From contig CALGDE010000131.1 in NCBI GenBank assembly GCA_937883785.1, positions 1 to 36,512 on the forward strand: a stretch of DNA of 36,512 nt, in the 5' to 3' direction. The DNA is from an uncultured cyanobacterium. GTDB taxonomy: Bacteria; Cyanobacteriota; Cyanobacteriia; CACIAM-69d. The notes below the pieces were generated by a model. It saw nothing but the letters and a program-made list of their open reading frames with translations, did not search any database and had not been told where the DNA came from. This document shows, piece by piece, positions 5,914 to 10,139 of this stretch (the first letter of the stretch is position 1; each line of letters begins with the position of its first letter). Made by a program: the position numbers and the translations under genes.

Positions 5914-6471
5914 ATGAACACTTCAAACGTGCCGCATTTTTCCGAAGGTTCTCCTCAATTCTCAAGGGTATTTTTAGAGTCAACAGTGTATGGTCAAAGC
6001 CTAGACGCCCTAGTGATTGCCTGTGTGGATGTGGTTTTGATTTGGGGCGATCACGTCCTTTTGGGACAACGAAAACAGCCCCCCCGCGACGACTGGTGGG
6101 TGATCGGTGGGCGCATGGTTCATGGCGAGTCACCCCTTAAGGCAGCCCAGCGCAAGTTGCAAGAAGAAGCTGGATTGACGGACATTAAGGAGAGCCGCCT
6201 GGAATTTATCGGCGTATTATCCACCCGATTTTCTGAGCGTAGTCAGCCGCCCCAGCACCATGGTCTTCACAGCATTAACTTGACCTATCGCCTGAAACTG
6301 ACGGACGCTGAAGGGCAGGGAATTCAGCTCGATTCAGCAGAGTATGGACGGTGCCAATGGTTCACACTGCCAGAAATCAGCCACCACCTCCAGAACAGTC
6401 TCGAAATGGATCGAGCCCTGGCACTGACGGTAAAGCTTTCAATGACAGAACAAGATACTCCCAATTCCTAA
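5914..6471 (+). CDS. NUDIX hydrolase with altered Nudix box
   Basis: This 185-residue predicted hydrolase should cleave a nucleoside-diphosphate-linked substrate. The Nudix box is at residues 66-88: G66, E72, then R80-K81-L82-Q83-E84-E85-A86-G87-L88. The consensus REUXEE therefore reads RKLQEE, with the first catalytic-helix glutamate changed to lysine; the two later glutamates remain. Around it are WWVIGGRM before and FIGVLSTRF after, a layout reminiscent of GDP-mannose mannosyl hydrolases, which also deviate in the box. I chose the ATG at 5914 because AGAGG precedes it and because a longer TTG-initiated frame from 5815 would translate through a strong terminator hairpin, giving a spurious hydrophobic N-terminus. 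It is followed by a 167-bp gap before the oxygenase gene and is probably a separate unit. Confidence 0.85.
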   Translation: MNTSNVPHFSEGSPQFSRVFLESTVYGQSLDALVIACVDVVLIWGDHVLLGQRKQPPRDDWWVIGGRMVHGESPLKAAQRKLQEEAGLTDIKESRLEFIGVLSTRFSERSQPPQHHGLHSINLTYRLKLTDAEGQGIQLDSAEYGRCQWFTLPEISHHLQNSLEMDRALALTVKLSMTEQDTPNS

Positions 6472-6638: not shown

Positions 6639-7394
6639 ATGTGGAAAAGTTTTAATGCTTATCCTTTAACTGAAGAAAATTTGTACGGTTTGATTAAAAA
6701 TACCATTCCTCTAATTCGTGTTCCTAGGTTCGGAACCGATCAAGAAGCAGAGGAACTTGCTGAACGTTTTTTACAGTTTGCTGCTCGATCTAATTCGGTT
6801 AAGACCGTAACCCGAATGGGTATTAGCCAATATGAACAGGGCACAGTGGGCGGCAAAGATAACTATTTTCGCCGAGTGGAAGGAGCCTGGTCTAATTTAA
6901 TTACGGTTTGCAAAACCACCTTTAACCCCACAGTAAAAGTGATGGGGATCTTAAGGGAATATTTTGCCGATGTAGATATCCTCACAGAGGAAGGATATGG
7001 GCGTTACTTTGCCGGAGTAGCAAAATTAAGAACGGGAGAAACGCCCGTTCACAGCGATTTTCCGCTCCTTGGGGCAACAGATTGGGCGATCGCTAAAATG
7101 GAAGCCCAGCTTTCGTGGAACTTTTATTTGCGCATACCAGCTCAGGGCGGGGAGCTAAGAATATGGGACAAACTATGGCAAGTGGAAGATGATCGGCTAC
7201 TAGAAAAGGGAACGTATTATCACGATAAAAAAATCATTTCTGATATTCCTTCAATTACGATAAAGCCAGTGCTAGGTGAGTTAATCCTCTTCAATTCTCG
7301 AAATTACCATACTGTTCTACCGGCACAAAATCGCATTGCCATGGGGTCTTGGATCTCCTTAATGCCCGACGAAAGTTTGAGACTGTGGTCTTAA
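6639..7394 (+). CDS. 2-oxoglutarate/Fe(II)-dependent oxygenase-like protein
   Basis: This 251-residue protein looks like a cytosolic 2OG-Fe(II) dioxygenase. The facial triad appears as H138-S-D140 (VHSDFPLLG) with distal His224 (RNYHTV). Arg232 (NRIAMGSW) is well placed to bind the 2-oxoglutarate carboxylate. GGELRIWD at 170-177 matches the double-stranded beta-helix strand found in prolyl-hydroxylase-like members. The substrate is unknown. The gene ends two bases before a GNAT start codon, so the two are almost surely translationally coupled. By eye its codons are more A/T-rich than the flanking housekeeping genes. The start ATG has no obvious Shine-Dalgarno site. Related oxygenases serve in natural-product or peptide hydroxylation, and that is only a hint here. 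Confidence 0.75.
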   Translation: MWKSFNAYPLTEENLYGLIKNTIPLIRVPRFGTDQEAEELAERFLQFAARSNSVKTVTRMGISQYEQGTVGGKDNYFRRVEGAWSNLITVCKTTFNPTVKVMGILREYFADVDILTEEGYGRYFAGVAKLRTGETPVHSDFPLLGATDWAIAKMEAQLSWNFYLRIPAQGGELRIWDKLWQVEDDRLLEKGTYYHDKKIISDIPSITIKPVLGELILFNSRNYHTVLPAQNRIAMGSWISLMPDESLRLWS

Positions 7395-7396
7395 GT

Positions 7397-7924
7397 ATGG
7401 AAATTAAAGCCCTATCTCCAGGGATGAGTTCGTCATATTTAGATGCGATCGCCACCCTAAGAGTTAGGGTATGGTCGCACCAACTCAAAGAAAAAGCTTT
7501 CGTAGAAAATAAATGGTGGGACAAACACGATCTTCACGCTTTTCACTGGATTGTTCTGAATGAAAACAGTGAATTAGTGGCTTCAGCTCGCTTATCTACT
7601 CACAATACAGTAGTCGAACTTCCTGACTTCGAAGAGATTAAAGCGCTTTTAACCGAACTCCCTAGCCCCATAGCAATGATGAGTCGACTGGTCGTCAGCC
7701 CTGAATATCAAAGGAGGGGAATTGCTCAAAAACTGGATGTAGCTAGGCTACAAAAGGCCACACAGATTAATGCCCAGTCCATCGTTTTACAAGTTCCCGC
7801 TTACCGCAGAAAGGCAATTAAAAAACTAGGCTTTAAATGTATTGGAAAAGCTAAGGAAGAGACTTTTCATGGGACATCTAATATTGATTTCTTCCTATAC
7901 GCCAAAGTTCATAGCCTTGATTAG
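7397..7924 (+). CDS. GNAT-family N-acetyltransferase
   Basis: This 175-residue predicted acetyl-CoA-dependent acyltransferase has the GNAT motif A as RLVVSPEYQRRGIAQKL (residues 97-113), with the R-R-G-I-A pyrophosphate loop. Strand beta-4 precedes it (MMSRLVV), and a motif B-like YRRKAIKKLGFKCIG segment lies at 136-150. The acceptor substrate is unknown. The ATG lies two bases beyond the oxygenase stop codon. A longer frame from 7349 overlaps the oxygenase and is rejected because the natural start follows the stop directly. Tight coupling suggests that both enzymes act on one pathway. The downstream ATP-grasp gene converges on it with a 39-bp gap and no clear terminator. Confidence 0.85.
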   Translation: MEIKALSPGMSSSYLDAIATLRVRVWSHQLKEKAFVENKWWDKHDLHAFHWIVLNENSELVASARLSTHNTVVELPDFEEIKALLTELPSPIAMMSRLVVSPEYQRRGIAQKLDVARLQKATQINAQSIVLQVPAYRRKAIKKLGFKCIGKAKEETFHGTSNIDFFLYAKVHSLD

Positions 7925-7963
7925 GGCACTTTAACTTCGTTAGACCATAAGAAATTGTTCTCG

Positions 7964-9028
7964 CTATCGCTTTAGACTTTTTAGCCAAGTTCTAATTTTA
8001 AGGCGAGTACTGAGCTGATAGGGATAGGGAAGAATTTTCAATAGGGATAAAGGCAGAAACTTTGCCACTTTTATCAGGTAAGATTCACGATACTTACTTA
8101 GTCCTGTCGAAAGGAAAATTTTTATCGACGAAGGTCTTTCGTCATTAATTAATTTGAGTTCACTTGCAAATGTATCTGCAAAATAACTGTGGGTTACTAC
8201 CCGTTTTTTCTGCAATTCGTTCACCATATCTTTGATGCTTAGGCTCATTGGATTGGTGTTAATTTCCCACACTTGAGGAACACCATCAATTAAACTGTAG
8301 TCAATACGTCCATAGTCAATATTTGCCAGTTTAAAAATACTCCGAAGCATAGACTCATGGGGATTAGTTTTTACATATTCTTCCTCTTCTAAAAGATTTC
8401 TCTCTTCGACCAATTCAGGGCATTTAATCATCCATTGATAATTAAAGAAAAGATGCCTGGGAATGATTTCACCGCCCACAATAAAGGACGAATATTTTCT
8501 AAAAAGTCCGTCTTGATCAGCTGTGGAACAAAATTCAGTGATGATTTTATTGTCAAGGCTTTCTCCTGCTTCAGAGAGTCGACTTACGGCTTGATCCAAT
8601 TCTGTAGGGGTATTGATTAATCCGGTACGGCTGCCCCGATGGTCATTTTCGCCTCGGATAAAGACAGGAAATTTTTCTGGCTGACGATGTTCCGTCAAAC
8701 GATAAACGTTGAACTGATTAATTCCCTTTAGATACAGGCTGCGCAACAGTTCATAGCGTCGTTTGGAACGAGTGGGATGATTTAGCAGGCGAATTCCTTT
8801 TCCTGAATTAGCTAACTGCTCCCAAATCCTGGCGCTTCTCTCCGCCTCATCGGGATTAAGACGCTCAATATCCGAGAAAATATAGGTTCCCAATGGCAGT
8901 ATCTTCATTTGCCAAAGCTGCTCATAAAACAAAGGGCGCACAAAGGAGGCGGAAGTTTTAATGCCCCATGACTCTAAGTAGTTGACGATTGTATAGGCGG
9001 AAGATTGACGAACTACGTAGAAGATCAT
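7964..9028 (-). CDS. ATP-grasp superfamily protein, substrate unknown
   Basis: This 354-residue protein ends its core with YGRIDYSLIDGVPQVWEINT followed by Asn-Pro (residues 239-260). That is the ATP-grasp metal-binding signature, with D243, E255 and N257 as expected magnesium ligands. An N-terminal pre-ATP-grasp-like region (1-85), then FPVFIRGEN (120-128) and KIITEFCST (161-169), fit the nucleotide-binding subdomains. The C-terminal ~60 residues are basic and hydrophobic. Members of this superfamily ligate carboxylates to amines or thiols, including peptide-tailoring enzymes. No RimK, D-Ala-Ala or carboxylase subgroup is recognised. The start ATG has no clear ribosome site. Upstream on the opposite strand lies a transposon relic, so its promoter region may derive from one. 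Context with an oxygenase and an acetyltransferase suggests a biosynthetic island, which is inference. Confidence 0.7.
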   Translation of the reverse strand: MIFYVVRQSSAYTIVNYLESWGIKTSASFVRPLFYEQLWQMKILPLGTYIFSDIERLNPDEAERSARIWEQLANSGKGIRLLNHPTRSKRRYELLRSLYLKGINQFNVYRLTEHRQPEKFPVFIRGENDHRGSRTGLINTPTELDQAVSRLSEAGESLDNKIITEFCSTADQDGLFRKYSSFIVGGEIIPRHLFFNYQWMIKCPELVEERNLLEEEEYVKTNPHESMLRSIFKLANIDYGRIDYSLIDGVPQVWEINTNPMSLSIKDMVNELQKKRVVTHSYFADTFASELKLINDERPSSIKIFLSTGLSKYRESYLIKVAKFLPLSLLKILPYPYQLSTRLKIRTWLKSLKR

Positions 9029-9036
9029 TACGTCAA

Positions 9037-9126
9037 AAAAGACCAGGGAGTTTATTGGGGCGTGTGCTCAGTCAGGCGCCAGAAGCTTCATACCGTGGGG
9101 AGTACACGCCCTCTCGAGTCAAATAG
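9037..9126 (+). mobile_element. Relic of IS200/IS605-type tnpB 3' end
   Basis: In one frame this segment reads KRPGSLLG, then RVLSQAPEASYRGEYTPSRV, then Lys and a stop. From memory this resembles the C-terminal tail of cyanobacterial TnpB proteins of IS200/IS605-family elements. The frame opens directly upstream of the ATP-grasp start codon, and no further TnpB sequence is seen, so only the last ~28 codons remain. GGGCGTGTGCTC (about 9058-9069) and GAGTACACGCCC (about 9100-9111) form a near-perfect inverted repeat, as expected for such an element's right-end structure. The identification is from pattern memory and is moderate at best. Confidence 0.5.
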
Positions 9127-9221
9127 GTTAGAGGCTGTAACCTTCGCTATTATTGGGTTTGAAGTTTAACGGAGCACAGCCAGTTCACTTCGATTATTCC
9201 CCGATTCTGTGCCGCAATATC

Positions 9222-10127
9222 TTATCTGCCTGCCATTTCGCTTTCTCGAATTTCCTCGATGATATTTTTCAAATCAGCAACGCTGGACTGATAAACCTCA
9301 CTGCAAAAATGACAGGTTGCTTCTGCGCCGCCGTCCTTTTCAATCATGTCTTGAAGCTCTTCCGGTCCTAGCATTTTTAAGGCGGTAAACATCCGCTCTT
9401 TGGTGCAAGGACAGTGGAATTTCACGGTTTGCTCTTCGGGGAAGATATGCAAGCCCATATCTCCCATCAACTCTTCAAAAATATCGGGGAGCGATCGCCC
9501 CTCCCGCAGCAGGGTACTAAAGCCAGCCAGGTGCCCTACCCGCGATTCCAACTTGGTCACCAGCTCCTCTTCGACGGCAGCTTTCGGCAAAATTTGAATC
9601 ATAAAACCACCGGCAGCGGTCACCCCAGAACTATCCACAAAAACGCCTAGGGAAAGGGCCGACGGCGTTTGTTCAGAATTAATCAGAAAATTCGCCACAT
9701 CATCGCCAATTTCGCCGGAAATAATTTCCGTAGTGCTAGAAAACGGACGACCGTAGCCCAACTCTCGAATGGAATGTAAAAAACCGCGACCCACCGCAGC
9801 CCCCACATCCAACTTGCCATTAGGCTTCGGCGGCACTTCCACCGTAGGATTGCCCACATAGCCCCGCACGGTGCCATCCAATCCCGCATCCGCCAGAATG
9901 CCCCCCAGGGGACCATCCCCCTTAAACCGCAAATTAACCCGCGAATCAGGATGCTTCATATTGGACACCAACAGCAGCCCTGCCGTCATCGTTCGCCCCA
10001 GCGCCGCCGTTGCTACCCGCGACAAACCGTGACGACAGCGGGCTTCTTCTGTGAGTTGGGTGGTGATGGTACCCACAACGCGGATGCCACCGTCAGCGGC
10101 AATGGCTCGGATTAGGCGATCGCTCAT
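9222..10127 (-). CDS. hslO: Redox-regulated holdase chaperone Hsp33
   Basis: This 301-residue cytosolic chaperone is activated by oxidative unfolding. The C-terminal zinc-binding redox switch is intact: C239-x-C241 (HCPCTKERM) and C272-x-x-C275 (ATCHFC). The N-terminal substrate-binding core begins SDRLIRAIAADGGIRVV and includes the conserved RHGLSRVATAALGRTM, followed by FKGDGPLGG and VRGYVGNP. Length is typical. I start at the ATG at 10127 rather than the in-frame TTG at 10139, because the family begins with M-(S/T)-D-x-L-x-R. The gene is divergent from hemB across a ~330-bp region, which could place a redox chaperone and a tetrapyrrole gene under shared local control. Confidence 0.95.
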   Translation of the reverse strand: MSDRLIRAIAADGGIRVVGTITTQLTEEARCRHGLSRVATAALGRTMTAGLLLVSNMKHPDSRVNLRFKGDGPLGGILADAGLDGTVRGYVGNPTVEVPPKPNGKLDVGAAVGRGFLHSIRELGYGRPFSSTTEIISGEIGDDVANFLINSEQTPSALSLGVFVDSSGVTAAGGFMIQILPKAAVEEELVTKLESRVGHLAGFSTLLREGRSLPDIFEELMGDMGLHIFPEEQTVKFHCPCTKERMFTALKMLGPEELQDMIEKDGGAEATCHFCSEVYQSSVADLKNIIEEIRESEMAGR

Positions 10128-10139
10128 AGGTTTAAGCAA

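Follow-up and report, generated by a model that had tools for sequence, protein, structure and literature searches.

In the nostopeptolide 4-methylproline pathway, the leucine 5-hydroxylase LdoA is described as acting first (PMC5676206). SadA, an N-acyl-leucine hydroxylase, is reported to hydroxylate N-succinyl-leucine (PMC3665795). The fungal E-64 pathway is reported to use an α-ketoglutarate (aKG) oxygenase, an ATP-grasp enzyme and an amide bond synthetase and to proceed without a non-ribosomal peptide synthetase (NRPS) (PMC12568646), and the argolaphos cluster is described as encoding ATP-grasp and GNAT proteins together, either of which may form amide bonds (PMC8976061). Here we analyze a block of three genes in a 36,512-nucleotide stretch of DNA from an uncultured cyanobacterium (the window; on contig C131 of source genome G000, 4.84 Mb in 167 contigs). 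The block encodes an Fe(II)/2-oxoglutarate (2OG)-dependent hydroxylase (OX), a GCN5-type N-acyltransferase (GNAT) and an ATP-grasp ligase-like protein (ATPG), and is bounded by a NUDIX gene on the left and an Hsp33 gene on the right. We tentatively favor the view that it forms a small NRPS-independent amino-acid tailoring pathway, in which OX hydroxylates, GNAT acylates and ATPG amidates. The publications listed on ATP-grasp enzymes of this type with oxygenase, GNAT, HExxH, exopolysaccharide or GT25 partners contain precedents, and the block itself was not recognized among them.

Enzymes of the block and their conservation

OX (6639–7394, plus strand, 251 aa) is identified by its Pfam matches (WelO5, 2.2e-10; 2OG-FeII_Oxy_3, 9e-07), its site residues and its model fold. 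The HxD...H iron triad and the 2OG-binding Arg are present as H138, D140, H224 and R232, all of which are invariant among 8 aligned relatives. One model of OX has a predicted local distance difference test (pLDDT) score of 83.7 and the other four score 46–64, so the fold rests on one good model. It matches WelO5 (Z 23.5, root-mean-square deviation (rmsd) 2.8 over 239 residues, 18% identity) and SadA (Z 18.9, rmsd 3.1 over 218 residues, 16% identity), with all subsequent matches at Z 13.3 or less. Sequence and model together point to the WelO5/SadA fold group and to an intact 2OG-Fe(II) hydroxylase of the carrier-free kind. In WelO5-type halogenases the iron-binding Asp is replaced by Gly (or Ala), and the Gly of the WelO5 halogenase is visible at that site in the matched structure entry 5iqu. 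A halogenase of this type is disfavored for OX, because Asp140 is present and does not vary among the aligned relatives, and a hydroxylase is expected instead. Among the matches to solved structures listed for OX-type proteins, WelO5 and SadA were found and GriE was not recognized; GriE is reported to be just 14% identical to LdoA (PMC5676206).

Class-wide searches covered 388 cyanobacterial genomes, drawn evenly from a larger group, and OX has matches in 13 of them. Its nearest cyanobacterial relatives, in G135 (35% identity), G096 (35%) and G061 (31%), all have homologous zinc-alcohol-dehydrogenase genes beside them (3/3), while those of G096 and G061 also adjoin pyrroline-5-carboxylate-reductase-like genes (one representative of each scanned in Pfam: ADH_zinc_N, 2.4e-24; P5CR_dimer, 4.9e-36). 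Large adenylation-domain (AMP-binding) proteins adjoin the three relatives as well. It is in such a gene setting that 5-hydroxyleucine is described as being converted to 4-methylproline (PMC5676206). In the OX tree, which contains 15 relatives (13 of the 14 class-wide matches, all but the broken G277 copy L057, and two proteins from plasmids), OX forms one group with the G135, G096 and G061 proteins and two proteobacterial plasmid proteins (support 100/100), on long branches. Because LdoA-like proteins and SadA are among its relatives, our best guess by analogy is that OX would act on a leucine-like substrate, either the free amino acid or an N-acylated form.

GNAT (7397–7924, plus strand, 175 aa) carries the Pfam domain Acetyltransf_1 (9.9e-09; 35.9 bits against a curated cut-off of 20.7). 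Among the 388 genomes, its only strong match outside its own genome is in G001 (71% identity), the sole congeneric genome in the set searched. The ATG of GNAT at 7397 is located two bases past the OX stop codon, and the spacing in G001 is identical (OX stop 3494, ATG 3497). Because of this shared two-base spacing, OX and GNAT are probably co-transcribed. The link between the two genes, based on spacing, strand and conservation, is strong.

ATPG (7964–9028, minus strand, 354 aa) is identified by a 15-member alignment and its model fold. D243, E255 and N257 are invariant among the 15 aligned relatives, and the model (pLDDT 86.6) matches RimK/LysX/ArgX ligases at Z ~15.7 with rmsd 4.1 over 258 residues, the matches to this group spanning Z ~15, rmsd 4.1–4.7, 253–263 residues and 12–15% identity. 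Ddl is also among the fold matches, as is the graspetide ligase PsnB (Z 12.7, rmsd 4.9 over 242 residues). Both the fold and the acidic/Asn metal ligands thus have the features of the ATP-grasp superfamily. At the sequence level, ATPG has no Pfam match at E<=1, its best NCBIfam match scores 14.3 bits against a cut-off of 310, it passes none of the curated RimK/LysX/Ddl family cut-offs, and its profile gives no match to solved-structure sequences up to E 10. A few of the 15 members show weak matches of the D-Ala-D-Ala-ligase type and similar. The ATPG family is therefore without a Pfam or NCBIfam model of its own. An earlier note on this DNA had described an oxygenase with the four residues given above, ending two bases before a GNAT gene, and an ATP-grasp protein with a D243/E255/N257 metal site converging on them; the invariant residues, the spacing, the minus-strand position of ATPG and its model fold agree with both descriptions.

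The same note remarked on A/T-rich codons in the block, which is confirmed by comparison with 148 other long open reading frames (ORFs), sampled in the window and in fifteen 15-kb stretches of G000. The GC content at third codon positions (GC3) is 0.39 for OX, 0.38 for GNAT and 0.39 for ATPG, against a mean of 0.58 (standard deviation 0.07), and none of the three ranks above the 0.7th percentile in either GC or GC3. Synonymous codon likelihood is less extreme, at the 6.8th (OX), 1.4th (GNAT) and 8.8th (ATPG) percentile. The flanking NUDIX-domain gene (5914–6471, plus strand; Pfam NUDIX, 6.6e-17) and Hsp33 chaperone gene (9222–10139, minus strand; Pfam HSP33, 9.5e-89) are of normal composition.

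Both flanking genes are syntenic in G001, where the order HAD, PSRP-3, NUDIX, OX, GNAT, ATPG, Hsp33 is identical and the gaps within the block are short too. This intact block between the same neighbors in a congener was overlooked in the earlier note. The PSRP-3/Ycf65 gene, like the relatives recovered, places G000 in the cyanobacterial phylum. Protein identity between the two genomes is 85% for OX, 71% for GNAT and 79% for ATPG, and the nucleotide identity of the block is ~76%. Pairwise NG86 ratios of nonsynonymous to synonymous substitution (dN/dS) are 0.06, 0.135 and 0.07, respectively; they are rough, because dS is 1.4–1.8 for the three genes and near saturation. Purifying selection acts on each of the three. 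Synteny, identity, dN/dS and dS in G001 make it probable that acquisition of the block predates the divergence of the two species, both of which have retained it. A recent acquisition is rejected, given the presence of the block at the same place in G001 with ~76% nucleotide identity and dS >1. The Hsp33 neighborhood is not conserved in G002–G005, so an empty site could not be shown there.

Between ATPG and Hsp33, outside the proposed pathway, is a ~124-bp interspersed repeat (9058–9181, no strand), identified by its matches in the genome; the earlier note had taken it for a tnpB-like tail at the block's edge. The repeat has 41 matches in G000, window copy counted, most of them ~72–86% identical to that copy. 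Rfam has no match to it or to any other part of the window, and Pfam none to the 54-aa ORF that overlaps it. Visual inspection of ~0.2–1.5 kb of flank at five other copies revealed a tnpB-like ORF at none of them (0/5), and the tnpB assignment is unconfirmed. The repeat is absent from the corresponding ATPG–Hsp33 gap of G001, and because the block is intact there, the repeat did not bring it. Most simply, the repeat is a separate insertion in the G000 lineage, uninformative on the block's arrival. A transposon-borne block is unsupported, given the 41 genome matches of the edge repeat and its lack in G001.

Distribution and partners of the ATPG family

ATPG matches are found in 10 of the 388 cyanobacterial genomes and are strong and full-length in six of them (G000, G001, G002, G026, G183 and G313); the remainder comprise one degraded copy (G262) and three weak or partial matches. 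In Planctomycetota, 10 of 294 genomes match. The six cyanobacterial proteins group together (91/90) in a tree of 29 rows, from which the degraded G262 copy (L065) was dropped and in which the distant L064 (G335) fell below the cut-off; G000 and G001 are sister to the rest, and the deeper branches are unresolved. The G262 copy (L065:2898-3631) contains in-frame stops, a sequence feature which suggests that some cyanobacteria are losing ATPG. Plasmids of Pseudomonas, Acinetobacter and others are also among the sequence matches listed.

We compared 31 ATPG neighborhoods, window and G001 counted, keeping L065 and L064 and leaving out the weak matches in G075 and G087 (L043, L044), G008, G444 and G497. 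In four planctomycete loci (L010:8001-10293, L012:3767-6475, L013:8001-10598 and L015:7902-10877), a convergent aKG-HExxH peptide beta-hydroxylase gene lies beside the ATPG relative. All four hydroxylases contain the motif HEFYH, and TIGR04267 matches are found in L010 and L013. Three of the loci are from Pirellulaceae and the fourth is from a more distant planctomycete, with hydroxylase identity of 30–34%.

Another three neighborhoods, in G026, G183 and G313 (L039:7100-11816, L062:7176-12528 and L063:3266-10436), combine the ATPG relative with a GT25-like gene and an adenylation-carrier-thioesterase (A-T-TE)-like protein of ~905 aa, and may constitute an undescribed small cluster. L062 contains an amino-acid racemase gene too, and L063 an HpsE-type glycosyltransferase gene and a gene partly similar to the MslH epimerase model. 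In addition, HpsE-type and other glycosyltransferase genes adjoin the ATPG relatives of G002 and G313, the relative in L110 follows a glycosyltransferase gene, and that of a Paracoccus plasmid has a flippase gene on one side and an O-antigen ligase gene on the other. In L103 (5047-7914), genes for a radical SAM protein and a 2-hydroxyacid dehydrogenase come after the ATPG relative.

A candidate tailoring pathway and alternative readings

Building on the observed gene identities, active-site residues, fold, OX–GNAT spacing, selection, synteny and composition, we infer an amino-acid substrate for OX, an acyl acceptor, an amide product and one substrate for all three enzymes. In the proposed pathway, the substrate of OX would be an aliphatic, leucine-like amino acid, either free or N-acylated, which it would hydroxylate with no carrier protein involved. 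GNAT would then N- or O-acylate the hydroxylated amino acid, as tailoring or for self-protection; GNAT-mediated self-resistance to amino-acid antimetabolites is a parallel for such a role. ATP-grasp enzymes work by an established mechanism through an acyl phosphate, and ATPG may activate the carboxylate in this way and couple it with an amine, so that a dipeptide or amino-acid amide is formed. Dapdiamide, with an oxygenase plus an ATP-grasp enzyme, provides a parallel for this combination. An NRPS-fed pathway was considered and rejected: the A-T-TE query gave just weak matches in G000, the best of them 26% identical, and for that reason ATPG is the sole amide-forming candidate found for the block. 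A mycosporine-type cluster was a further putative reading, prompted by the pairing of an ATP-grasp enzyme with an A-T-TE protein.

Several observations weigh against a joint pathway. Of the 388 genomes, only G000 and G001, which are congeneric, contain all three genes, and the ten genomes with GNAT matches otherwise contain short generic ones. OX had no match in 13/13 other ATPG-bearing genomes in a search without a positive control, and no OX or GNAT homologue is found in the 29 ATPG neighborhoods other than the window and G001. ATPG is convergent to OX–GNAT, on the opposite strand and outside their operon. The trio may have become adjacent just once, in an ancestor, and stayed together through general synteny, and the link of ATPG to OX–GNAT, which depends on that one arrangement, is circumstantial. 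The oxygenases of L040–L042 (in G135, G096 and G061) are LdoA-type as judged by gene context, not by a sequence match to LdoA, and the window block contains none of their NosE/NosF-like and NRPS neighbors. Nor was an exporter, a regulator or a further biosynthetic gene recognized in the block, and no repeat or transposon marks its acquisition.

The earlier note had proposed an acquired mini-cluster whose three enzymes share a pathway. Atypical composition, synteny in two species and dN/dS of ~0.06–0.14 are in line with this proposal, but co-occurrence is rare (2/388), no marker of acquisition was found, and the common substrate is putative. The rarity of the trio weakens the joint pathway, but the genes are individually rare and both congeners retain all three, so the pathway is still plausible from the sequences. 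The other partners of ATPG relatives make a tailoring role plausible, without demonstrating a shared substrate. A broader and unlikely extension is that the ATPG family, thinly spread across several bacterial phyla, repeatedly pairs with iron/2OG hydroxylases of unrelated folds (WelO5-like in the block, aKG-HExxH in Planctomycetota) to produce amino-acid amides that are both hydroxylated and capped. Its smallest complete version would then be the block in cyanobacteria, with GNAT providing the cap or self-protection.

A lesser but real possibility is that the block consists of two unrelated units, an OX–GNAT operon producing an acylated hydroxy-amino acid and an ATPG with a separate role, which share only a low-GC acquired island. 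This is in agreement with the opposite strand of ATPG, with the absence of OX and GNAT from ATPG neighborhoods outside the genus (0/29) and with G002, a member of the same family as G000, in which ATPG lies beside glycosyltransferase genes without OX or GNAT. It accounts less well for the unusual GC common to all three genes, for their retention together with short gaps in G001, and for the hydroxylase partner of ATPG relatives in four neighborhoods.

The glycosyltransferase, flippase and O-antigen ligase genes beside ATPG relatives (Paracoccus plasmid, G002, G313, L110) would fit a role of ATPG in coupling an amino acid to polysaccharide of the cell surface, with OX and GNAT responsible for preparing the amino acid or capping it. 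We consider this quite unlikely, since no glycosyltransferase gene is present in the region read, no homologue of the GT25-like partner is found in G000, G001 or G002, and many ATPG relatives have no polysaccharide-type neighbors.

Modification of a ribosomal peptide or protein, ATPG being a peptide ligase of the RimK or graspetide type, is very improbable: RimK/LysX/ArgX are the top fold matches, PsnB is matched as well, and aKG-HExxH peptide hydroxylase and radical SAM genes are neighbors elsewhere, but the intergenic DNA upstream of OX is unalignable between G000 and G001 with differing short ORFs, none conserved, and the fold groups of OX, WelO5 and SadA, act on small molecules. A defense system is rejected, as PADLOC yielded nothing beyond a short 2OG model and one weak match that looks like chance.

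Comparison with described systems

If the tailoring pathway proposed for the block is correct, a cyanobacterium would have a three-gene, carrier-free way of making hydroxylated amino-acid amides that is simple to express and assay. The same result would bring in an ATP-grasp family so far uncatalogued, whose association with HExxH hydroxylases, A-T-TE proteins and glycosyltransferases hints at new small molecules or decorated glycans. If it is not, the annotation has at least been corrected to an LdoA/SadA-like hydroxylase of amino acids, accompanied by a GNAT, and an orphan ligase next to them. Of greatest interest is something that the earlier note did not claim, namely the unnamed ATP-grasp family with its recurring hydroxylase partners.

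Like LdoA, OX has the HxD...H...R site, and it is a full-length relative (31–35% identity) of oxygenases encoded beside NosE/NosF-like genes. The window block differs from the LdoA pathway in having no NosE, NosF or NRPS gene, and the partner of OX is GNAT. SadA, an N-substituted L-amino acid 3-hydroxylase (PDB 3W20/3W21), represents the second-best fold group, and its use of N-succinyl-leucine fits a GNAT partner, although OX is 16% identical to it. The WelO5 halogenase is the best fold match and is carrier-free according to its Pfam name, whereas OX has Asp140 at the HxD position, as expected of a hydroxylase. The E-64 pathway resembles the block in the types of enzyme that it combines, an oxygenase with ATP-grasp amide formation without an NRPS; its amide bond synthetase was not recognized in the block, which has GNAT instead. 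RimK, LysX and ArgX ligases share the fold of ATPG, but identity is just 12–15% and the ATPG family is without its own model. Taken together, the block is probably a modest variation on known chemistry.

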